Notes under the pieces: generated by a model
What the model was told of the DNA's origin: nothing
Database searches by the model: none
What the model saw: the letters and a program-made list of their open reading frames with translations, nothing else
Part shown: in pieces, positions 1 through 9,334 of the stretch
How positions within the stretch are numbered: the first letter of the stretch is position 1
Layout of the letters: every line of letters starts with the position of its first letter
Origin: a bacterium
GTDB lineage: Bacteria > SM23-81 > DAOVCL01
NCBI GenBank assembly: GCA_029932675.1
Contig: JAOZPP010000051.1
Location: forward strand, 1 to 22,527
Direction: 5' to 3'
Length of the DNA: 22,527 nt
Translations under genes and position numbers: made by a program

Positions 1-74
1 AGGAGTTACGGTTTGCCATTAGGGAGGGGGGGAGGACAGTAGGAGCAGGTGTGGTCACCGAGGTGACAGAGTAG
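1..74 (+). CDS. tuf: Elongation factor Tu, C-terminal end (partial, 5' end outside window)
   Basis: Reading from base 3 gives 23 codons ending in TAG at 72-74, and the peptide ends RFAIREGGRTVGAGVVTEVTE. The RFAIREGGRTVGAGVV stretch is the hallmark C-terminus of EF-Tu domain 3. EF-Tu is the GTPase that brings aminoacyl-tRNA to the ribosomal A site in the cytoplasm. Only the last 23 residues are present, so nothing can be said about the GTP-binding domain. A tuf gene just upstream of rpmG, trnW, secE and nusG is the classic tufB position, but here about 8.3 kb of unrelated genes separates it from rpmG. A second tuf starts at 22485 downstream of fusA. Confidence 0.95.
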   Translation, partial: ELRFAIREGGRTVGAGVVTEVTE

Positions 75-80
75 GAGGAT

Positions 81-102
81 TTCTGGTTTCTTTAAACCAG
101 AA
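81..102 (+). terminator. Possible hairpin terminator of tuf
   Basis: Seven bases after the tuf stop, TTCTGGTTT (81-89) pairs perfectly with AAACCAGAA (94-102) across a four-base loop CTTT. The stem is AT-rich and followed by ATTATTC-type sequence rather than a clean run of T, so it is a weak intrinsic terminator or an mRNA 3' end stabiliser. Its last three bases overlap the left arm of the 14-base inverted repeat at 100-113. Confidence 0.45.
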
Positions 103-276
103 TTATTCATAAATTTCCGACGATTTGGTCTATTCTGTCATCATCTTGAATGTTAAGGACAACCGTATCACCAGAAGTGAGGGGGCAGGACCCCTGTTCT
201 GCCCCGGCCAGATCAGGGATCTGACCGCTCAGCCATTGGTAGTTCGCAGCTACGTGCAGGTTTTTATGAATAATTC
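100..276. repeat. 177-bp element bounded by perfect 14-base inverted repeats
   Basis: GAATTATTCATAAA at 100-113 is the exact reverse complement of TTTATGAATAATTC at 263-276. The enclosed DNA has two further hairpins but no believable ORF. This fits either a small non-autonomous transposable element (MITE-like) or a structured RNA closed by a 14-bp stem. I see no clear target-site duplication outside the arms, and no second copy of the arm elsewhere in the window. Confidence 0.45.
182..226. other. Two adjacent GC-rich hairpins
   Basis: GGGGCAGGA (182-190) pairs with TTCTGCCCC (197-205), allowing one G-T, across a six-base loop. Directly next to it GGCCAGATC (206-214) pairs with GATCTGACC (218-226), with one mismatch, across a three-base loop. 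Neither is followed by a T-run, so they are not typical terminators. They lie inside the 100-276 inverted-repeat element and would form two arms inside its closing stem, as in a folded RNA or the core of a MITE. Confidence 0.4.
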
Positions 277-414
277 AGGATGTTACCAGATTTCTCACCG
301 AGTTTGTGCCGAAGAGTAAAGGAGTCGAAATTAAGGAATAGAACGGCTTTGTTTTAGCTTCAATGAAACTACTTCAAATGGCTAAATAGTTCTTTTTAAT
401 TTGGAGGTTTCAAA

Positions 415-615
415 ATGGGGAAGCGTGGCTTGAGAAAAGGGACCCTGGGGATTCTGATTCTCTCTGTATTGGCATTGTTGATGATGTGGGTGGGCAATAC
501 CATAGCAGAATCGCTGGCAAAGGGCCTATTCCCCAAATCAAAGCTGATTTGGGAAAGGGAGTTCGATGGCAAGATAAGGGATGTTCAGGTGGGAGGTGGA
601 AATGTAGTGGTGTTA
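415..615 (+). repeat. Conserved 5' segment of propeller gene, copy A (partner 5029-5235)
   Basis: The first 67 codons (signal peptide plus first strand pair, ending near VQVGGGNVVVL) are much closer at DNA level to 5029-5235 than the gene bodies are. Stretches such as ATGGGGAAGCGTGGCTT and ATAGCAGAATCGCTGGCAA are identical. A shorter related stretch lies in the second gene at about 1812-1920. This marks the start of the duplicated unit. Confidence 0.65.
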
Positions 616-1710
616 TGGTGGAAAGGGAACGAAATAATTGACGAAGGTCAACTTAGCATCGTCTCCTATTTAAATTCTAAAGGCGATGTTCTTTGGGAAA
701 AGAATTTTGCCTGGCATCTACCCGGCGAATGGGATAAGGAAGGGTATATTGAGAGTATATCCTTGTCTAAAAATGGTAAGGCTTTGATTGCGAATACAGT
801 GGTGGGCCCTGGAGAAGGACGGCGTGTGTATAGTTATAATGCAGAAGGCGATTTTAGATGGGAGACCGGGGCGATTGAGCCAGGCTTGGTAGTATCTCCG
901 AGAGGAAGTTATGCTATTACGACCCGCCAAAGTGAAGAGGAAATGGCAGGATATTTCAGAGTTTTTAACAATAAAACAGGAAAAGAAATATGGAATGATA
1001 GAGAAGCCGGTAGATGGTTTGCCGCTTTTTTGAATGACGGAGAGATCACCTACTTTAAAGGCCCTTTTACTCCTCTCTTTGTTCCTTATTCTGGCAAGTG
1101 TGAGCTGATGCTTTTTGATGCCGATACAGAAGCGATTGAATGGAAGGTAAATATAAAAGCCGCGATAAATAGCGTAGATCCTGTCTGGGTAACCTGGGGA
1201 CTTAATAAAGTGAAGACAAGTTACGATGGTAAGTTAATTGCTATTGCTGTGATGAATTTTAACTATAAGAAAAGACAACAAGCACAGGAAAGAACAATGT
1301 TAATGTTTGATAAAGATGGGAAGTTCTTATGGAAGAGGGATGACTTTGGAATTGTGAGGGGGGGATTAGGGGGGATAATAAGTTTTTCTTTTACCCTGGA
1401 TTCAAAGTATTTATATGTTCTTAGTTCCAAGGGCACAGTCGATCTCTTAGATGCCTGGACGGGAGAGAGGCTATGGAGGACAAGGGGTGGAAATACGATA
1501 GAATTTGGATTTACTTCCGAGGGGAATCTTATCACATCACCAACTCCAGAGGGAGGAAAGTGTGTAATGGTCTACAAGTTAGATAATGGTGAGGGATCGA
1601 GAGTTCCTGAAGTTCACAGGGCAATTCCGATAAGGGACGATGAGATTGCGCCAAGCTCTTTTATTCTCATAGACAAAGAACGAAAGAAGATCCAGAAAGT
1701 GGAATTTTAG
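415..1710 (+). CDS. Exported beta-propeller protein (PQQ/WD40-like repeats), copy 1
   Basis: This 431-residue protein begins with a basic N-terminus and hydrophobic stretch (about residues 9-27), with a likely signal peptidase site after TIA at 29-31. The rest is about seven blade-like repeats, each with a W strand of the kind GDVLWEK, GDFRWET, GKEIWND, GKFLWKR or GERLWRT, as in PQQ-like/BamB-type propellers. No catalytic motif, lipobox or sorting domain is seen, so it is probably a periplasmic or surface binding/scaffold protein; the function is unknown. The start is ATG with GGAGG eight bases upstream. It is paralogous to the genes at 1730 and 5029; residues 1-67 match the 5029 protein closely while the later blades diverge. 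It is followed after 19 bases by the copy at 1730, suggesting one transcript. Confidence 0.8.
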   Translation: MGKRGLRKGTLGILILSVLALLMMWVGNTIAESLAKGLFPKSKLIWEREFDGKIRDVQVGGGNVVVLWWKGNEIIDEGQLSIVSYLNSKGDVLWEKNFAWHLPGEWDKEGYIESISLSKNGKALIANTVVGPGEGRRVYSYNAEGDFRWETGAIEPGLVVSPRGSYAITTRQSEEEMAGYFRVFNNKTGKEIWNDREAGRWFAAFLNDGEITYFKGPFTPLFVPYSGKCELMLFDADTEAIEWKVNIKAAINSVDPVWVTWGLNKVKTSYDGKLIAIAVMNFNYKKRQQAQERTMLMFDKDGKFLWKRDDFGIVRGGLGGIISFSFTLDSKYLYVLSSKGTVDLLDAWTGERLWRTRGGNTIEFGFTSEGNLITSPTPEGGKCVMVYKLDNGEGSRVPEVHRAIPIRDDEIAPSSFILIDKERKKIQKVEF

Positions 1711-1729
1711 TCTTTAATCTCGAGGATCA

Positions 1730-2971
1730 TTGAAAATCGGAACAAAGTTGTTTATCCAGATTGCGTGTATTATACTGGCTACATCGGTGCCCTTTTGGGG
1801 CAACGCTGGCTTTGCAGAATCATTGGCAAAGGGCCTATTCCCCAACGCAAAGGTGATTTGGGAGAGGGAGTTCGATGGCAAGATACAAGAGGTTCAAGTG
1901 GGTGGGGAAAATGTCGTGGTATGGGATAGACTCCACCTTAAATGTTTGGATACTATGGGGAACATTCGTTGGGAGAAGAGGTTTGACCATGGGGCTATTT
2001 GCAAAGTTTCTCTATCACAAAATGGCGATGCAATAATCGTTAATGTCACAGACTGGGTATCCGACAGGTCGAGGGCCTATAGTTATGATAGAAATGGAAA
2101 ACTGAAATGGGATGTTGTTGTTTATAATCCAGGCCTGACTCTATCTCCAGAGGGTAACTATGCAATTACCACTCATCGGAGCATAGATGAGGATAAAGGA
2201 TACTTTAGGGTCTTTGACAACCGGACAGGTAAAGAGCTGTGGAATGATCATGGGGATAGATGGTTTGCAGCTTTTTTGACGGACTCAGAGGTAGTTTATT
2301 TGAAGAGTCCCTTTACCTCGAGAGGGACAGAGAGATGTGAGCTTAGTCTTTTGGAGTTAAAGGGTTTTACTTTCAAGTGGACGAGGGATCTTCAAAAGGA
2401 AATTGGTAGTGTAAATCCTGTTTGGGTTGGATTTGGTGCTGACAAGCTAAAGACAAGCGACGACGGGAAATTAATAGCAGCGGTTGTAAAGAATTTTAAC
2501 TACAAGGGCAAATGGCATCCCCAGGAGCGCACTTTATTGCTATTTAGCAGAAATGGCGATTTCTTGTGGAAACGAAATGATTTTGCTAAGCTCAATTCGA
2601 CATTAGGAGGGATAAACGGCTTTGTCTTTTCTGTTGAGTCGGAACACTTAATTGTAGAAAGCTTTAAGGGAACTTTCGATTTGTTGGACGCATTAACCGG
2701 ACAACGATACTGGAGAGTGAAACGAGAGAGGTTTCGTGACGTGGACGTTGGATATACCTTCTTTTATGATAAGAAGTGTTTTCTTCCTGTTATAAAGTGG
2801 GTACGAGAGGGAGAATCTACTGTTGCAAAAAAGTTAACTCTTGTGCTTGATGAGAAGACAGGCAGCCAAGCGGGAAGTCCAGTTAATATCATGATGATTC
2901 CTATGGGAGGTAGGGGTTTAATTCTTGTAGATGAGGACAGGAACAGGATTCAAAAAGTTCAAATTGACTAA
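1730..2971 (+). CDS. Exported beta-propeller protein (PQQ/WD40-like repeats), copy 2
   Basis: This 413-residue protein has a signal peptide (hydrophobic about 7-22, likely cut after A29 in GFA) and the same fold and repeat pattern as its neighbour at 415: LIWEREF-like first strand, then GNIRWEK, GKLKWDV, GKELWND, GDFLWKR and GQRYWRV. The start codon is TTG at 1730, with a short-spaced GAGG at 1722-1725; translation may depend on coupling from the upstream gene, whose stop is 19 bases away. It lacks the MGKRGLRK leader shared by the other two copies but keeps the ESLAKGLFP and EREFDGKI stretches. The C-terminus ends in a conserved NRIQKVQ-type strand, like the RKKIQKV of copy 1. No enzyme motif is seen; ligand and role are unknown. 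Confidence 0.78.
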   Translation: MKIGTKLFIQIACIILATSVPFWGNAGFAESLAKGLFPNAKVIWEREFDGKIQEVQVGGENVVVWDRLHLKCLDTMGNIRWEKRFDHGAICKVSLSQNGDAIIVNVTDWVSDRSRAYSYDRNGKLKWDVVVYNPGLTLSPEGNYAITTHRSIDEDKGYFRVFDNRTGKELWNDHGDRWFAAFLTDSEVVYLKSPFTSRGTERCELSLLELKGFTFKWTRDLQKEIGSVNPVWVGFGADKLKTSDDGKLIAAVVKNFNYKGKWHPQERTLLLFSRNGDFLWKRNDFAKLNSTLGGINGFVFSVESEHLIVESFKGTFDLLDALTGQRYWRVKRERFRDVDVGYTFFYDKKCFLPVIKWVREGESTVAKKLTLVLDEKTGSQAGSPVNIMMIPMGGRGLILVDEDRNRIQKVQID

Positions 2972-3006
2972 TAAAAGTTGAAAGATAAGATTGTTGGAGG
3001 TCTATT

Positions 3007-4896
3007 ATGAGGAGTTTTGTTAAACAAGCAATTATTGTATTTTCCCTCAGCATTGTGTTCTTGTTGACCTGTTTACTTGTCCCGAAGGGCCTTTTAGCAG
3101 CTTATAAATTCAGGAAAAGTCAGTCTATTTTTTCTCAAAGGAATATGGTTTTCGTCAAGGTAAGGGCCAGCTCAATGGAGGAGGTTGAGAGGCTGAAGGC
3201 GATGGGAATTGACTATAAATCTATTGGGACAAGGATTGTCCCTATTGAGCAAAGCAGACTGGGAGAGCTTACTGAGATGGGGATAAATTTTGAGATAGCC
3301 AGAAAAGCGCTACTCCTGCAAGCCAAAGGGATACCTTTGGTTAAAGGGAAGGGGGAGGTTAAGCATAAGTTGGTGGATACAGATGTCCCCATTCCAGACA
3401 ACGATCCCTGGGGTGCGATCTCAGAGATAACGGTTTGGGATGCTCCCTACAATGCTGTGGTCACGAATGTTGATTTTAAGATTCAGATTGTTCACGATTG
3501 GTTGCCCGATTTGTATGTGGAGTTCTATGACCAGTGGTCTGGGAATTATGTGGAGTTATGGAATAGGAATGGGGACACAGGAGATGGGTCTGATGGAGGC
3601 TATGATCATGATTCTGAGGATGATTGGGATATCTACTTATACTGTTACACCTGGGCTTTTAATGGCCAGGATGTGAACCAGACCTGGACGCTTTATGCTG
3701 AAGATAAAGCGGCGGGGGATACTGGGTATATTGACTATTTGGAGATCTGGCTCTATTATAATGAGGCCGGAGGATATTACTGTTGGCCTCTATCCAAGTG
3801 TGATGAGCCCGCTCATGGAATAAATAGCGCCTTTGGGCCAAGATGGATGGATAATCCAAATAACCCTGGTGTAGGTGACTCGGTCTGGAATTTTCATGGC
3901 GGCCTGGATATTAGAGCAGGTTATGTTGGAGAAGATGTTTACCCTATATTTACCGATACCATTTGGGTAATACCTGCTCCACATACAGTAATAGTTCGGG
4001 ATGTATTAGATTCTGATCATTACATGCGTTATACCCATATAGACACAACCGGTTTTGGGCTTAAAGTTGGGGATTATCTGATAGGTGGGCAAACTCATTT
4101 CTCTGATATACAAAATATGGCTGGATTTCATTTGGATGTTAAGGATTACATTACTTCTCCGGACGATCGTCTTTACACAAGGAATCCGATGCACATTTTA
4201 CCCTATACAGACTTTTATAGTATGACCATATGGGGGGTCAGTTCTGAGTGGCCAAGGGCCGCTTTTTGGGTAACAACCCCCGGAGATGAGCTTGATTTGA
4301 ATAGAGTAAGGGTTTATGGTTCTGGGCCTGGATGGACATATGATAAATATGTTGACTATGACGAAAAGCACAATGTAATTTACAACAATAATTATTATCA
4401 TGATCCGCCAACTGTAAATGGGATAACCGTCAGACCCAGACACTTTCCGGGCTCGCCATCAGATAAAGTGACAGGCTTCACTTTTAGTTATGAAGATCCT
4501 ATGGATGGAGTTTATGACAGCACAATAACCATTGAGGTCTATAACATCTGGGGGGTTATGGAGGCTTCTTACTCAGTCGAAGTATTTGTAGAACCCAATG
4601 AAGACGAGAGATTGCCAAGGGAGTTTTGGGTGGCTCAGAATTTCCCCAATCCTTTCAACCCAGAGACTGAGATAAGCTATGAACTTCCCAAGGATGCTCA
4701 TGTAACTCTGACTGTTTACAATCTCTTGGGGCAAAGGGTCAAGACTTTAGTGGATGAGAGTCAAGGGGTTGGACGGCACAATGTTCGTTGGGGAGGAAGA
4801 GACGACAGCGGGGAAGAGGTGGCCAGTGGGGTCTATTTCTATAAAATCCAAGCTGGAGATTTCACAGTTACTAAAAAGATGGTGCTTATCAGATAA
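3007..4896 (+). CDS. Secreted P-domain / M23 peptidase-like protein with type IX-style C-terminal sorting domain (copy 1)
   Basis: This 629-residue exported protein has a signal peptide (about 1-32) and a small alpha/beta prodomain-like segment (about 47-100). A proprotein-convertase P-like beta domain follows (about 126-250, with DVPIPDND and WTLYAED), then a LytM/M23-like domain (about 255-395), an Ig-like region, and a FlgD-like C-terminal domain (536-629, with QNFPNPFNP and GVYFYKI) of the kind used for type IX secretion and surface anchoring. M23 motifs seen are FGPR, H297-GGL-D301 and H344. The final HxH pair reads H375-L-D377, so the expected last zinc ligand is Asp. This suggests an inactive or altered peptidase, perhaps a binder of peptidoglycan or another polymer. 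The start is ATG with GGAGG at 2996-3000. It lies 35 bases after the second propeller gene. Its paralogue is at 6450. Confidence 0.82.
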   Translation: MRSFVKQAIIVFSLSIVFLLTCLLVPKGLLAAYKFRKSQSIFSQRNMVFVKVRASSMEEVERLKAMGIDYKSIGTRIVPIEQSRLGELTEMGINFEIARKALLLQAKGIPLVKGKGEVKHKLVDTDVPIPDNDPWGAISEITVWDAPYNAVVTNVDFKIQIVHDWLPDLYVEFYDQWSGNYVELWNRNGDTGDGSDGGYDHDSEDDWDIYLYCYTWAFNGQDVNQTWTLYAEDKAAGDTGYIDYLEIWLYYNEAGGYYCWPLSKCDEPAHGINSAFGPRWMDNPNNPGVGDSVWNFHGGLDIRAGYVGEDVYPIFTDTIWVIPAPHTVIVRDVLDSDHYMRYTHIDTTGFGLKVGDYLIGGQTHFSDIQNMAGFHLDVKDYITSPDDRLYTRNPMHILPYTDFYSMTIWGVSSEWPRAAFWVTTPGDELDLNRVRVYGSGPGWTYDKYVDYDEKHNVIYNNNYYHDPPTVNGITVRPRHFPGSPSDKVTGFTFSYEDPMDGVYDSTITIEVYNIWGVMEASYSVEVFVEPNEDERLPREFWVAQNFPNPFNPETEISYELPKDAHVTLTVYNLLGQRVKTLVDESQGVGRHNVRWGGRDDSGEEVASGVYFYKIQAGDFTVTKKMVLIR

Positions 4897-4948
4897 CCTT
4901 TTAGGTAGGGGCTTAAGGAGAGAGTAGGTAAATGAGGGAGATCGTTAC
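4474..4948 (+). repeat. 475-bp direct repeat, copy A (partner 7920-8394)
   Basis: This tract matches 7920-8394 at a constant offset of 3446 bases. It covers the last 140 codons of the M23-like gene (Ig-like end plus sorting domain), the stop, the short spacer and the first codons of rpmG. By eye there are only about ten differences, most of them clustered at about 4856-4873. Even synonymous sites are identical over the rest, so the copies arose or were homogenised recently, although the upstream gene bodies have diverged far. Confidence 0.9.
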
Positions 4949-4970
4949 TCTTCCAAGGGGGGAGGTTTAG
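4932..4970 (+). pseudogene. rpmG: Remnant of the rpmG start (ribosomal protein L33), truncated
   Basis: Following the same spacer that precedes intact rpmG, this begins ATGAGGGAGATCGTTAC, identical to 8378-8394, and encodes MREIVT. It then leaves the match and reads LPRGEV before TAG at 4968-4970. Only the first six codons are rpmG, and all four zinc-binding cysteines are missing, so it cannot make L33. It marks the 3' breakpoint of a tandem duplication whose other copy still abuts the intact gene. Confidence 0.85.
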
Positions 4971-5028
4971 GGGAGGCCGTAGGGATTTATTTTCCTTAGA
5001 GAAGGAGTTTATCTTTAGGGTTTTAGGA

Positions 5029-5235
5029 ATGGGGAAGCGTGGCTTAAGAAAAAGGGGGTTGTGGTTTCAGATTCTCTCTGTGGGGCTATTGGCATTGTTG
5101 ATGATATGGGTAGGCAATGCTATAGCAGAATCGCTGGCAAGGGATTTATTCCCTAAATCAAAGCTGATTTGGGAGAGGGAATTTGATGGTAAGATACGAG
5201 ACGTTCAGGTTGGCAGTGAAAACATAGTTGTTCTG
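5029..5235 (+). repeat. Conserved 5' segment of propeller gene, copy B (partner 415-615)
   Basis: This is the counterpart of 415-615. It encodes a near-identical leader and first propeller strands, with one small length difference after codon 8. Together with the 4474/7920 repeat it brackets the duplicated unit: propeller gene start to rpmG start. Confidence 0.65.
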
Positions 5236-6441
5236 ACAGATATTTTTGTGAGAGGAAAAGACCTTTGTAGTGTTGTCTACTGTTTGGGGCCTAATGGAAA
5301 TGTTTTGTGGGAGAAGAGATTTGACCTGAAACCAGATAAACGTGGGGAGTATTATGGTGGAGTGGATAATGTGTCGATCTCAGCGGAAGGGGGAGAAGTA
5401 ATCATAAATTCTCGTGCTGGATGTGAGTGGGTGATTGCAAAGAGTTATGACAAAGAGGGCAATCTCAAGTGGGAGACTCCTCTTTTTGCACCAGGACTCA
5501 CCTTATCGTCCAAAGGTGACTATGCCATAACAATTCACAAAAGCGGTGTCGAGAGGTGGGATGGATATTTCAGGGTTTTTGATAATAGAACTGGCCAGGA
5601 GTTATGGTGGGACAAAGAGAAGGAATCCATTGAGAAAGGATCTAAAATTACACACACGGAATTTAATTGGGTAGCCACATTTTTAAATGACAGCGAAGTT
5701 GTTTATTTCAAGGGATACAACCTGGAAAGGCCTTATGTCAAGTTGCTTCTTTTTGATATAAAGAAGTTAGAAACGAAGTGGGTAGTTGATATTGGTGAGA
5801 GATTGGGGGATCCACTTCACTTTAGGTTGTTTTTTAATCCACCTCAAATACCGCAACTTAAGGTGAGTGAAAATGGGAAGTTTATGGCCATTGCTGTGGA
5901 CTATTCTAATCTTCCTGATGAAGAGAAAAGAGAGGGAAGGAGATTGGTAGTATTGAGCAATGAGGGAGGTATATTGTGGAGCAGCAAAGACTTTGTGACG
6001 ATAGAGGCAGCAATGGGGCCTGAAAGGCGGATAGAAAAGGTAGGAGGATTAAGCTGTTTTTGCTTTATTGACGACTCTAAGAGTCTCTTTGCCGGAAGTG
6101 GGCCTCCAGCTACGATAGATATCTTTGATCTTCTTACTGGAAAAAGAAGATGGCGAAAAGTTTTAGGACAAGACTGGGGAAGTTACTGGCATCAATGTTG
6201 CCCATTTGCCATTAACGGAAACTTCGTTACCACGATGCGCAAAAGGGAAAGAGTTGGCTTAAAATTTGAAGAAGTCGCGGTTATCTTTAGTTTAGAGACA
6301 GGTGAGATATGCAAGAAGTCTTATGACATAGTCCGCATCATTCCTATGATGAGTTATGAAAATAAGGTAAAGTCTTTCATTCTATTAGACAAGAGTAGAA
6401 AAGTGGTCCAAAAGGTAAAGTTAGTCCCTGACTTAGAGTAG
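5029..6441 (+). CDS. Exported beta-propeller protein (PQQ/WD40-like repeats), copy 3
   Basis: This 470-residue protein has a signal peptide (basic start, hydrophobic about 11-29, likely cut after AIA at 31-33) and a propeller built on the same W-strand repeats: LIWEREF, GNVLWEK, GNLKWET, GQELWWD, GILWSSK and GKRRWRK. It is the longest of the three, with extra residues in two loops (about 189-210 and 260-285). The first 69 residues are nearly those of the gene at 415, but the rest has diverged. The start is ATG at 5029; the ribosome binding site is poor (AGGG at 5017-5020, AGGAG only at 5003-5007). It begins 58 bases after the rpmG remnant and is followed after 8 bases by the second M23-like gene, indicating co-translation. 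No enzymatic motif is seen; the function is unknown. Confidence 0.8.
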   Translation: MGKRGLRKRGLWFQILSVGLLALLMIWVGNAIAESLARDLFPKSKLIWEREFDGKIRDVQVGSENIVVLTDIFVRGKDLCSVVYCLGPNGNVLWEKRFDLKPDKRGEYYGGVDNVSISAEGGEVIINSRAGCEWVIAKSYDKEGNLKWETPLFAPGLTLSSKGDYAITIHKSGVERWDGYFRVFDNRTGQELWWDKEKESIEKGSKITHTEFNWVATFLNDSEVVYFKGYNLERPYVKLLLFDIKKLETKWVVDIGERLGDPLHFRLFFNPPQIPQLKVSENGKFMAIAVDYSNLPDEEKREGRRLVVLSNEGGILWSSKDFVTIEAAMGPERRIEKVGGLSCFCFIDDSKSLFAGSGPPATIDIFDLLTGKRRWRKVLGQDWGSYWHQCCPFAINGNFVTTMRKRERVGLKFEEVAVIFSLETGEICKKSYDIVRIIPMMSYENKVKSFILLDKSRKVVQKVKLVPDLE

Positions 6442-6449
6442 GGGAAGTT

Positions 6450-8342
6450 ATGCAGGTTCATTGGAAATTAGGAATATTTGTGTTTTTTATAATAGGGTTT
6501 CCTTTAATAGCTGTATCCGTCCCCTTAGCTAACATCGAAATCGGAGAATTTGTCAGCTCGCAGAAGATTCATTATCAATTGCTGGATGGGAATAAATCAT
6601 TGGTTATTTGTGGCAACAATTCAGAACTTTTAGAAAATGTTTGCATTATCCATATGGGAAACGGCCAGAATGGAAACATCAAAGATGAGAGTCGGGCATT
6701 CCTTCCGCCACATTGGGTTAACATTATGAACGAAGATTTCGAATCATCTTTTCCAGATAATGCTTGGAGCCGCCGAGATGTGGGGCACACAGGCAATCCC
6801 ACTGGTCATTTATGGGGTAAAGATGACTATAATCCTCATTCAGGAAAATATAGTGCATGGTGTTGCAGGAATGGGGTAAATGGCCTTGATCCAGAGTTTA
6901 ATGATTACGCTAATAATGTTCTCACCTTTATGATTTGGGGGCCTTGTGATCTTAGTGTTGGCAATGTCACTGCTGCGGAACTGCACTTTTATTATTGGTG
7001 TCGCACCATGTACGAACCTGATAGGTTCTCTCGACTTGCATCAATTGATGGCACAAATTTCTCAGGTTATGCGGCCTATGGCGATGGTGGGGATGTCTGG
7101 CGCTTTGAAAACTTCGATCTGACCAATGTCCCTGATATAGGCAATGTTTGTGGTCGCCCTCAAGTTTGGGTAGCATTTGCTTTCGAAAGCGATGGATCTC
7201 AAACACACAAAGGGGCGTTTGTTGACGATGTTGTTCTGAGAATTAATACGGAAAACTATTACTGGCCTTTGTCCCGAAGCACTACACCCCTTCATAGTTT
7301 AACCAGTCCTTTTGGGCCGAGAATCCTAATCTCGGGGAATGATACCACTTTTGACTGGCATGGTGGACTTGACATTGATGATGATGATAATCCTGCGACA
7401 GAAGATGATGTCTACACTGTATTTACAGGTATTGTTGATCACATAGGCAGCCAGTCGGTCAGGATTAGGGATACTGTGATTCCAAATCACCGTATGGAAT
7501 ATGTGCATATAAATCCAAGTGTAAATCTATGGGATAATGTTGTTGCTGGACAGACCAGAATAGGAGGGATTAGGCATATTGGGCCTGATCACTTACATGT
7601 TGAGGATTACCTGGGCGGAACTGCCTTTTCTAACTTAAGGAACCCGATGAATATTTTACCTCATACAGATACTGAGGATATGACCATATGGGGTGTTAGT
7701 TCTCACGGGCCCAGAGCCGCCTTTTGGGTGACAGTGCCGGGCAATGAGCTTGACTTGAATAGGATAAGGGTATATGGTTCAGGGATTGGAGGATGGAGTT
7801 ATGATAAGTATGTAGACTATGACGACCAACACAACTGTGGGGACGACAGTTCCACACACGACGGGATAACCATTCATCCAACTGACTTTGGAGGTTATCC
7901 ACCCAATGACCAAGTAACTGGCTTCACTTTTAGTTACGAAGATCCTATGGATGGAGTTTATGACAGCACAATAACCATTGAGGTCTATAACATCTGGGGG
8001 GTTATGGAGGCTTCTTACTCAGTCGAAGTATTTGTAGAACCCAATGAAGACGAGAGATTGCCAAGGGAGTTTTGGGTGGCTCAGAATTTCCCCAATCCTT
8101 TCAACCCAGAGACTGAGATAAGCTATGAACTTCCCAAGGATGCTCATGTAACTCTGACTGTTTACAATCTCTTGGGGCAAAGGGTCAAGACTTTAGTGGA
8201 TGAGAGTCAAGGGGTTGGACGGCACAATGTTCGTTGGGGAGGAAGAGACGACAGCGGGGAAGAGGTGGCCAGTGGTGTCTATTTCTATAAAATCCAAGCG
8301 GGGAATGTTAAATTTACTAAAAAGATGGTGCTTATCAGATAA
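6450..8342 (+). CDS. Secreted MAM/jelly-roll-like / M23 peptidase protein with type IX-style C-terminal sorting domain (copy 2)
   Basis: This 630-residue exported protein has a signal peptide (hydrophobic about 7-26) and a short linker. A jelly-roll, MAM-like or immune-inhibitor-A-like accessory domain follows (about 94-265; starts NEDFESSFPDNAW, ends GAFVDDVVLRI), then a LytM/M23 domain (about 270-400), an Ig-like segment and a FlgD-like sorting domain (537-630). The M23 residues are complete: SPFGPR, H304-GGL-D308, H353 and H381-L-H383. Family knowledge makes this a plausible zinc endopeptidase acting on peptide crosslinks of peptidoglycan or on another secreted substrate. The last 140 residues match the paralogue at 3007 except for four near the end. 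ATG follows AGGGGAAG and sits 8 bases after the third propeller stop. It lies directly before rpmG, so its transcript may run into ribosomal genes. Confidence 0.84.
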   Translation: MQVHWKLGIFVFFIIGFPLIAVSVPLANIEIGEFVSSQKIHYQLLDGNKSLVICGNNSELLENVCIIHMGNGQNGNIKDESRAFLPPHWVNIMNEDFESSFPDNAWSRRDVGHTGNPTGHLWGKDDYNPHSGKYSAWCCRNGVNGLDPEFNDYANNVLTFMIWGPCDLSVGNVTAAELHFYYWCRTMYEPDRFSRLASIDGTNFSGYAAYGDGGDVWRFENFDLTNVPDIGNVCGRPQVWVAFAFESDGSQTHKGAFVDDVVLRINTENYYWPLSRSTTPLHSLTSPFGPRILISGNDTTFDWHGGLDIDDDDNPATEDDVYTVFTGIVDHIGSQSVRIRDTVIPNHRMEYVHINPSVNLWDNVVAGQTRIGGIRHIGPDHLHVEDYLGGTAFSNLRNPMNILPHTDTEDMTIWGVSSHGPRAAFWVTVPGNELDLNRIRVYGSGIGGWSYDKYVDYDDQHNCGDDSSTHDGITIHPTDFGGYPPNDQVTGFTFSYEDPMDGVYDSTITIEVYNIWGVMEASYSVEVFVEPNEDERLPREFWVAQNFPNPFNPETEISYELPKDAHVTLTVYNLLGQRVKTLVDESQGVGRHNVRWGGRDDSGEEVASGVYFYKIQAGNVKFTKKMVLIR

Positions 8343-8394
8343 CCTTTTAGGTAGGGGCTTAAAGAGAGAGTAGGTAAATGAGGGAGATCGTTAC
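7920..8394 (+). repeat. 475-bp direct repeat, copy B (partner 4474-4948)
   Basis: This is the second copy of the tract described at 4474-4948. Here the repeat flows without a break into the complete rpmG coding sequence, so this junction looks like the original one and the copy at 4948 is the duplicate breakpoint. Identity ends at base 8394, in the fifth base of the shared GTTAC. Confidence 0.9.
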
Positions 8395-8527
8395 CTTGGC
8401 CTGTACGGAATGTAAGCGGAGGAACTATACCACTACAAAGAACAAGAGGAAACATCCGGATAGGTTAAGCTTTAAGAAATATTGCAAGTTTTGTAAGAAG
8501 CATACTCTTCATCGGGAGACGAGATAA
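8378..8527 (+). CDS. rpmG: 50S ribosomal protein L33
   Basis: This 49-residue protein begins [17 protein letters not shown] and ends [10 protein letters not shown], typical of bacterial L33, a small protein of the large ribosomal subunit near the E site. Four cysteines in two CxxC pairs (C9, C12, C36, C39) mark the zinc-ribbon (C+) form. The start ATG at 8378 has only a weak AGG-type site upstream (in GAGAGAGTAGG). It stands 35 bases after the second M23-like gene and 11 bases before tRNA-Trp, the conserved rpmG-trnW-secE order. A broken copy of its first six codons lies at 4932. Confidence 0.95.
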
Positions 8528-8538
8528 GATAGTATTGC

Positions 8539-8615
8539 AGGCCTGTAGCTCTAACGGCTAGAGCGCCGGTCTCCAAAACCGGAAGTTGGGGGTTCGAATC
8601 CCTCCAGGCCTGCCA
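8539..8615 (+). tRNA. trnW: tRNA-Trp (anticodon CCA)
   Basis: A full cloverleaf can be drawn. Acceptor AGGCCTG (8539-8545) pairs with CAGGCCT (8605-8611). The D stem is GCTC/GAGC, the anticodon stem CCGGT/ACCGG has loop CTCCAAA with anticodon CCA at 8573-8575, and the T arm is GGGGG-TTCGAAT-CCCTC. The discriminator is G8612, and the 3' CCA is encoded (8613-8615). Trp tRNA between rpmG and secE is a widespread arrangement. Only 6 bases separate its 3' end from the secE start. Confidence 0.97.
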
Positions 8616-8621
8616 ATTATT

Positions 8622-8810
8622 ATGATAGAAAAGGTTAAAAAATTTCTTAAGGAAGTCCGCTTGGAGATGCACAAGGTTACCTGGTCAACCAGGGAGGAGT
8701 TAATTACCTCTACGATTGTGGTGATTGTGGTTTCCCTCCTTTTGGCCATCTTTATTGGGGCCATTGACCTTGGCCTTTCTAACTTAGCGAATCTGATCCT
8801 GGGCAGATGA
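8622..8810 (+). CDS. secE: Preprotein translocase subunit SecE
   Basis: This 62-residue single-span form of SecE starts MIEKVKKFLKEVRLEMHKV. It has the conserved amphipathic helix and KVTWSTREEL motif (about 18-27), then one transmembrane helix (about 31-48). SecE clamps SecY in the inner-membrane Sec channel. I chose ATG 8622; an upstream in-frame start at 8586 would lie inside the tRNA. There is no room for a Shine-Dalgarno sequence outside the tRNA, so after tRNA processing the mRNA would have a 6-base leader. The stop overlaps the nusG start (ATGA). Confidence 0.93.
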   Translation: MIEKVKKFLKEVRLEMHKVTWSTREELITSTIVVIVVSLLLAIFIGAIDLGLSNLANLILGR

Positions 8811-9334
8811 AGAAGAGTTGGTACGTGGTTCATACCCTTTCCGGGCATGAGCAGAGGGTGAAGAGAAGTTTGGAGAAAGCGATCGAGGCGAAGGGACTAC
8901 AGGAGAAGATAGGGAAGGTACTCATCCCTACTGAGCAGGTTGTGGAGATGAGGAAAGGCAAAAGGATGGTTACGACAAGGAAATTTCTTCCCAGTTATGT
9001 CCTTATTGAAATGGCTTTGGATAAGGAGACCAGCCATTTGGTGGTGAGTACCCCGGGGATTACCAATTTTGTTGGGGCCAAGGGTAAACCTCAACCCTTA
9101 TCCCAGGAAGAAGTAGATAGGATATTTGAGCAAGTTAGCCATCAACAGGGTGAGAGGATGGAAATCCCCTTCGAGGTTGGTGATGCGGTCAAGGTTACAG
9201 ACGGCCCCTTTACCGACTTTTCTGGTGTGGTAAGTGAGGTCAACTCGGAGAGGGGGAAGGTAAAGGTGATGGTAAGCATATTTGGCCGTTCTACTCCAGT
9301 GGAGCTTGACTTTTTGCAGGTTCAAAGGATATAA
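8807..9334 (+). CDS. nusG: Transcription elongation/antitermination factor NusG
   Basis: This 175-residue protein has an N-terminal NGN domain (about 1-110; starts KKSWYVVHTLSGHE, with FLPSYVLIEM and STPGITNFVG) and a C-terminal KOW domain (about 122-175; FEVGDAVKVTDGPFTDFSG). NusG binds the RNA polymerase clamp, suppresses pausing and links polymerase to Rho or the ribosome. The length is usual. It overlaps secE by four bases (ATGA), which couples their translation, and is followed after 66 bases by rplK. Confidence 0.97.
   Translation: MKKSWYVVHTLSGHEQRVKRSLEKAIEAKGLQEKIGKVLIPTEQVVEMRKGKRMVTTRKFLPSYVLIEMALDKETSHLVVSTPGITNFVGAKGKPQPLSQEEVDRIFEQVSHQQGERMEIPFEVGDAVKVTDGPFTDFSGVVSEVNSERGKVKVMVSIFGRSTPVELDFLQVQRI

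Follow-up and report, generated by a model that had tools for sequence, protein, structure and literature searches.

The stretch considered here is the whole of contig JAOZPP010000051.1 (22,527 nucleotides, below called the window), from a 3.03-Mb metagenome-assembled genome (MAG; GCA_029932675.1, 97% complete, 0.24% contamination), and its point of interest is a module of five co-directional genes, encoding proteins of 413-630 amino acids, between tuf2, a second gene for EF-Tu, and rpmG, the gene for ribosomal protein L33. Three of them, prop1, prop2 and prop3, encode exported beta-propellers, and two, M23a and M23b, encode M23-peptidase-like proteins with the sorting tail of the type IX secretion system (T9SS). 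The tuf2-rpmG interval is probably a small exchange island of one genus, in which additive recombination at the start of rpmG has stacked two alleles of the interval, each unit being taken to comprise an M23-peptidase-like protein exported by the T9SS and, ahead of it, one or two BamB-like propellers of the periplasm.

The module is a derived, genus-level insertion at a normally tight tuf-rpmG-trnW-secE-nusG junction. The distance from the tuf stop to the nusG start, taken where both are on one contig, ranges from 417 to 890 bp across 27 other genomes, of which two belong to the phylum and 25 come from elsewhere, among the nearest compared, as against 8,731 bp here and 5,333 bp in the sole congener compared; in one further genome tuf and nusG are unlinked. 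Such a comparison of the interval in related genomes upholds the proposal of the initial annotation that the module was inserted, and its reading of both edges also stands, that on the left as the C-terminus of EF-Tu (TIGR00485 match and TAG stop, Table 1) and that on the right as rpmG-trnW-secE-nusG, as does its description of about 8.3 kb of exported propeller and M23-like genes in one direction, now five open reading frames (ORFs) on which profile searches have been run. In the congener (contig DAOVCL010000034.1, labelled Candidatus Zixiibacteriota at NCBI) the order on one contig is tuf - prop3 - second propeller - M23 - rpmG - trnW - secE - nusG. In two other genomes of the phylum (G002 and G003) rpmG lies about 45 bp after tuf with no module, and a search of both turned up nothing clearly related to the propellers or the M23 domain in any part of either. 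Given its absence from these two and its presence at the same address in the congener, the insertion is derived in the genus. A wider scan of genome contigs for relatives matched only the congener contig and one MAG of KSB1, the sole genome of that phylum that the search covered. The length of the five ORFs, together with homologues at the same address in another genome, makes them no chance occurrence. Ancestry across the phylum was rejected on the absence from two other phylum genomes, misassembly at 75 or 8377 because an independently assembled congener contig carries the module at the same address, and a plasmid origin on the lack of a match for prop1 in PLSDB.

Attention is next drawn to a duplication within the module. 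Two copies of a 457-bp sequence, which comprises the 3' end of an M23 gene and the first 17 bases of rpmG, differ by nine mismatches with 338 bp exact, and upstream of them M23a and M23b are mostly only 40-80% alike. The right edge of the duplicate is sharp and coincides with the last base of a 19-mer, AAATGAGGGAGATCGTTAC, which is the 5' end of rpmG and occurs exactly, genome-wide, only at 4930 and 8376. In the congener the true start of rpmG is an exact copy, and a copy with two mismatches, a match equalled in none of 2,000 trials with base-shuffled controls, overlaps the tuf2 stop on the left edge of the module there. Direct repeats of the end of the target gene thereby flank the prop3 unit here and the entire module in the congener; at the left end of the module here no copy was found within 6 mismatches.

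The alleles themselves are patchy in their relatedness. The segment 4930-6380 is about 96% identical to the sequence right after tuf2 of the congener, and the spacer 5' of prop3 here is the spacer 3' of tuf2 there; prop3 and about 100 bp upstream of it are 96% identical between the two genomes, compared with about 81-82% for the remaining shared region. Synonymous and non-synonymous divergence (dS and dN) from the congener are 0.076 and 0.015 for prop3 codons 1-440, after which similarity drops abruptly and the corresponding values for the last 30 codons are 0.42 and 0.37. For core genes of the same stretch dS is 0.89 (rplJ), 0.97 (rplA), 1.27 (nusG) and 1.32 (rpoB), and for other module genes 0.57 (M23a) and 0.67 (the N-terminal half of prop1). 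On these distances the prop3 segment reads as a recent cross-lineage exchange. The second propeller gene of the congener is a prop1/prop2 chimera, matching prop1 mostly at 84-94% along its N-terminal half and then at 40-60%, with its matches to prop2 confined to its two ends. Module gene content (five here, three in the congener) and order (prop3 fourth here, first there) differ as well. Recombination within the interval, and gene content that differs between relatives, are both marks of a hotspot, and on sequence comparison the interval from tuf2 to rpmG is a recombining island whose module genes are exchanged while the essential flanks stay.

The favoured course, a single event that fits these observations, would start from a donor allele from a relative, arranged tuf-rpmG'-spacer-prop3-M23b-rpmG, and a recipient chromosome arranged prop1-prop2-M23a-rpmG. 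With a left crossover in the 19-bp rpmG 5' end and a right crossover in the M23 3' end, the intervening target segment would be duplicated and the two alleles left stacked in tandem. Homology for such additive recombination would be supplied by the conserved flanks, and each swap would rebuild an intact rpmG start. The M23-like protein would be a metallopeptidase that cleaves cell wall or protein and that the T9SS carries to the cell surface or into the medium; the propeller, adjacent to it at two of three KSB1 loci, would be its periplasmic partner.

Several considerations weigh against this account. With the locus present in just two genomes, the direction and order of events would rest on two alleles, and recombination is deduced from comparison rather than observed directly. 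The 338-bp exact repeat is longer than short reads, and the order M23a-prop3-M23b could be the choice of the assembler. Activity of the M23-like proteins is uncertain given the aspartate that most members have for the second zinc histidine, and the structure model of M23 is unusable (predicted local confidence, pLDDT, 36). The assembly concern has a fuller form, in which the chromosome is tuf-prop1-prop2-M23a-rpmG and prop3-M23b, from a second strain living alongside or from a separate molecule, became attached through the shared 3' end. The exact repeat and its 457-bp near-repeat, the metagenomic nature of the data and the 96% identity of prop3 to the congener are what such a mixture would give. 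However, a junction that runs from M23a through the 19-mer and spacer into prop3 needs an actual molecule in which prop3 adjoins the 3' end of an M23 gene, M23b was not found in the congener, contamination is as low as 0.24% and the outer boundaries are confirmed by the congener, which together render the mixture improbable.

A different type of explanation is site-specific accretion of cassettes, where circular units would enter the 19-mer as a site resembling an attachment site, with a recombinase encoded elsewhere, and every unit would supply rpmG with a fresh start and ribosome-binding site. The appearance of accretion is given by the exact 19-bp repeat that bounds the prop3-M23b unit on either side, by the two-mismatch copy on the left edge of the congener module and by the tandem stacking, and streptococcal tyrosine-integrase elements use the rpmG 3' end and, rarely, the 5' ends of other genes (PMC4701971). 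Nevertheless, integrase, relaxase and conjugation genes were found to be absent from the five module proteins by ORF list and profile searches, the 19-mer is embedded in the 457-bp duplicate so that homologous recombination suffices, and the left end here has no 19-mer within the mismatch limit given above; accretion is judged unlikely. Its boldest version, that cassettes without an integrase accumulate inside the ribosomal and RNA polymerase operon at the rpmG 5' end as their dedicated attachment site, each restoring rpmG and adding a propeller-peptidase pair for T9SS export, is quite unlikely, and, if true, would imply an array of surface-protein cassettes expressed with growth-rate-linked transcription. 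Vertical inheritance with tandem duplication in place and no transfer, prop3 merely evolving slowly, would account for tandem paralogues and for finding the same genes at one address in the two genomes, but the synonymous distance of prop3 is about tenfold smaller than that of rpoB or nusG in the same stretch, its similarity stops abruptly within the gene, and its position differs between the two genomes; very little probability is attached to it.

Table 1. Features of the window (positions counted from its first base)
Feature	Positions	Strand	Remarks
tuf2 (second tuf copy), EF-Tu C-terminus	1-74	+	last 24 codons; stop TAG 72-74; TIGR00485 match at 6-68; contig begins inside gene
Terminator-like hairpin after tuf2	81-102	+	weak; overlaps left end of dispersed repeat
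Dispersed repeat copy, resembling a miniature inverted-repeat transposable element (MITE)	98-280	+	terminal inverted repeats GAATTATTCATAAA (100-113) and TTTATGAATAATTC (263-276); inner hairpin GGGGCAG..CTGCCCC
prop1	415-1710	+	exported eight-bladed BamB-like beta-propeller; N-terminal half matches congener's second propeller gene
prop2	1730-2971	+	exported beta-propeller paralogue; both ends match congener's second propeller gene
M23a	3007-4896	+	P-domain-like region (below Pfam cut-off); M23-like domain (HxxxD, YxH, HLD); T9SS sorting tail
Left 457-bp duplicate copy	4492-4948	+	M23 3' end and first 17 bases of rpmG
19-bp rpmG 5'-end copy	4930-4948	+	at junction with prop3 unit
prop3	5029-6441	+	exported beta-propeller; apparent recently exchanged allele
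M23b	6450-8342	+	N-terminal domain differs from that of M23a; M23-like domain (HxxxD, YxH, HLH); T9SS sorting tail
Right 457-bp duplicate copy	7938-8394	+	
19-bp rpmG 5' end	8376-8394	+	real rpmG start
rpmG	8378-8527	+	ribosomal protein L33
tRNA-Trp (CCA)	8539-8615	+	
secE	8622-8810	+	
nusG	8807-9334	+	
rplK-A-J-L, rpoB, rpoC, rpsL, rpsG, fusA	after nusG, up to 22467	+	

The right end of the contig (22485-22527), 3' of fusA, is the first 14 codons of tuf1, and another contig of the same genome (C23) starts with an identical tuf tail followed by rpsJ-rplC of the S10 operon, from which the map becomes tuf2-module-rpmG-trnW-secE-nusG-rplKAJL-rpoBC-rpsL-rpsG-fusA-tuf1-S10 operon. Two near-identical tuf genes explain both contig breaks. 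Contigs of the congener and of G003 are likewise cut within tuf, and with three genomes so affected tuf-adjacent regions of MAGs may often be truncated and inserts there under-reported. Spacers within the module are, in order, 19, 35, 132 and 8 bp, with 35 bp between M23b and rpmG. The module has a G+C content of 0.43; that of the core genes is 0.51, and for other fragments of the genome, 21.6 kb in all, it is 0.48.

Both M23-like proteins score over the cut-off for Pfam FlgD_ig and Por_Secre_tail, and their T9SS sorting tails score 47.0 and 46.7 bits on TIGR04183, whose cut-off is 23, as expected of T9SS cargo. SprA, the T9SS translocon and the component that the search covered, is encoded elsewhere in the genome (758.7 bits summed). 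The idea in the initial annotation of an accessory 'secretion system' has to be given up, the M23-like proteins being ordinary cargo, two of about 144 sorting-tail matches in the 3.0-Mb genome, a very large cargo set. Among the papers searched, none linked Zixibacteria with type IX secretion. Elsewhere in the genome two tandem, near-identical T9SS-tailed repeat-rich proteins (437 and 454 amino acids; contig C111, 782-3498) form a recently duplicated cargo locus. The M23 label comes from motifs and one significant Pfam M23 match among five family members (E 5e-5; the first member has none). The domains lie at 3775-4212 and 7257-7670, and HxxxD, YxH and HL[D/H] are present in all five members, across two phyla; HLH occurs only in M23b, the other four having HLD, with aspartate in place of the last zinc histidine, and the remaining active-site residues are invariant. 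HLD in four of five members may denote a variant metal site. A search of solved structures with the M23 domain gave only chance-level matches.

The propellers carry a Sec-type signal, and prop1 and prop2 are over the cut-off of Pfam PQQ_2/BamB-like profiles, with prop3 below it. The prop1 model (pLDDT 79; predicted template-modelling score, pTM, 0.82) is an eight-bladed propeller by its structural matches, BamB being Foldseek rank 1, and a second aligner gave a Z of about 22 with BamB and of 24-27 with WD40 propellers, from which the fold is clear and the function is not. The eight-bladed fold of BamB is thus present in the predicted structure; on the BamB equivalog TIGR03300 the scores are 28.1 and 22.7 bits against a cut-off of 285, and the lipoprotein signal of BamB is lacking, prop1 and prop3 having no cysteine in the first 45 residues and no lipobox. 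WDR5-like sequence matches were dismissed as generic repeat matches. In the KSB1 MAG BS750m-G25 two of three loci have a propeller immediately 5' of an M23-like T9SS protein, which makes the pair, and not the address, the wider unit. At the third locus (contig C35, 1-3258) a third member of the propeller family is directly downstream of a large gene that, by eye, resembles a subtilisin-type peptidase, with no M23-like gene next to it, hinting that the propellers pair with different exported peptidases.

Some 180 of the first 200 bp 3' of tuf2 are a copy of a dispersed repeat, outside the module sequence proper; in the congener the gap from tuf2 to the module is only about 95 bp and has no such copy. 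The repeat family has, besides the terminal inverted repeats, conserved inner hairpins (GGTGGCAGAACCCCTGTTCTGCCAC and GGTCAGATCAGGGGATCTGACC), which are all that many copies retain, and among the matches listed there are at least 25 in this genome, at least 14 in the congener and none in the other three genomes. An Rfam scan of 1-500 gave nothing beyond chance. With regard to transcription, the weak terminator-like hairpin at 81-102 and the repeat copy come between tuf2 and the module here. The gap of about 45 bp in G002 and G003 suggests that tuf and rpmG there form one transcription unit. No terminator-like structure was found in the M23b-rpmG spacer, and rpmG and the genes after it must depend either on read-through or on a promoter located in the module. 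A consensus promoter scan, with 25 found and 17 expected, cannot decide the promoter question. The module units probably sit within the old tuf2-rpmG transcription unit, in the same direction, and are expressed in part by read-through.

The gene order tuf-rpmG-secE-nusG-rpl-rpo is among the most conserved in bacteria, and the tuf-rpmG stretch is an unexpected address for an exchange island. Its slow-evolving flanks appear to act as recombination anchors for the swapping of exported proteins, with swap points that coincide with the start codon of an essential operon. It would offer a clean natural case of islands built by additive recombination without mobility genes, and raises the question of whether exported proteins can come under ribosomal-operon transcription.

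As to known systems, M23a and M23b resemble T9SS type A cargo in a tail over the TIGR04183 cut-off and in the presence of SprA in the genome, and depart from it in an M23-like domain that Pfam misses in most members and in HLD for HLH in most. The propellers share the eight-bladed fold and Sec-type signal of BamB and PQQ-repeat propellers, but are far below the equivalog cut-off, without a lipobox and paired with T9SS cargo. Streptococcal integrative elements have attachment sites at the 3' ends of rpmG, rplL and rpsI and at the 5' ends of ftsK, rbgA and ebfC (PMC4701971), and the interval recalls them in an intact rpmG, in possible accretion and in a short repeat of the end of a housekeeping gene, which flanks the prop3 unit here and the congener module but is absent from the left end of the module here; unlike them, it involves the 5' rather than the 3' end of rpmG and has no integrase or conjugation genes. 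Hotspots between core genes, free of mobility genes and with recombination at the flanks, are established (Oliveira et al. 2017, PMC5635113), and additive transfer via recombination in flanking regions has been proposed to be frequent (PMC11375855). The interval, where accessory genes separate core genes that are adjacent in relatives, agrees with these core-flanked hotspots of horizontal gene transfer, or flexible genomic islands, in variable content, lack of mobility genes, mosaic alleles and flank homology, and differs in its place between tuf and rpmG-secE-nusG-rpl-rpo, in a size of only 5-8 kb and in alleles seemingly stacked rather than replaced. It is a known kind of hotspot at an unusual address, whose distinctive feature is the stacking of alleles at the rpmG start.

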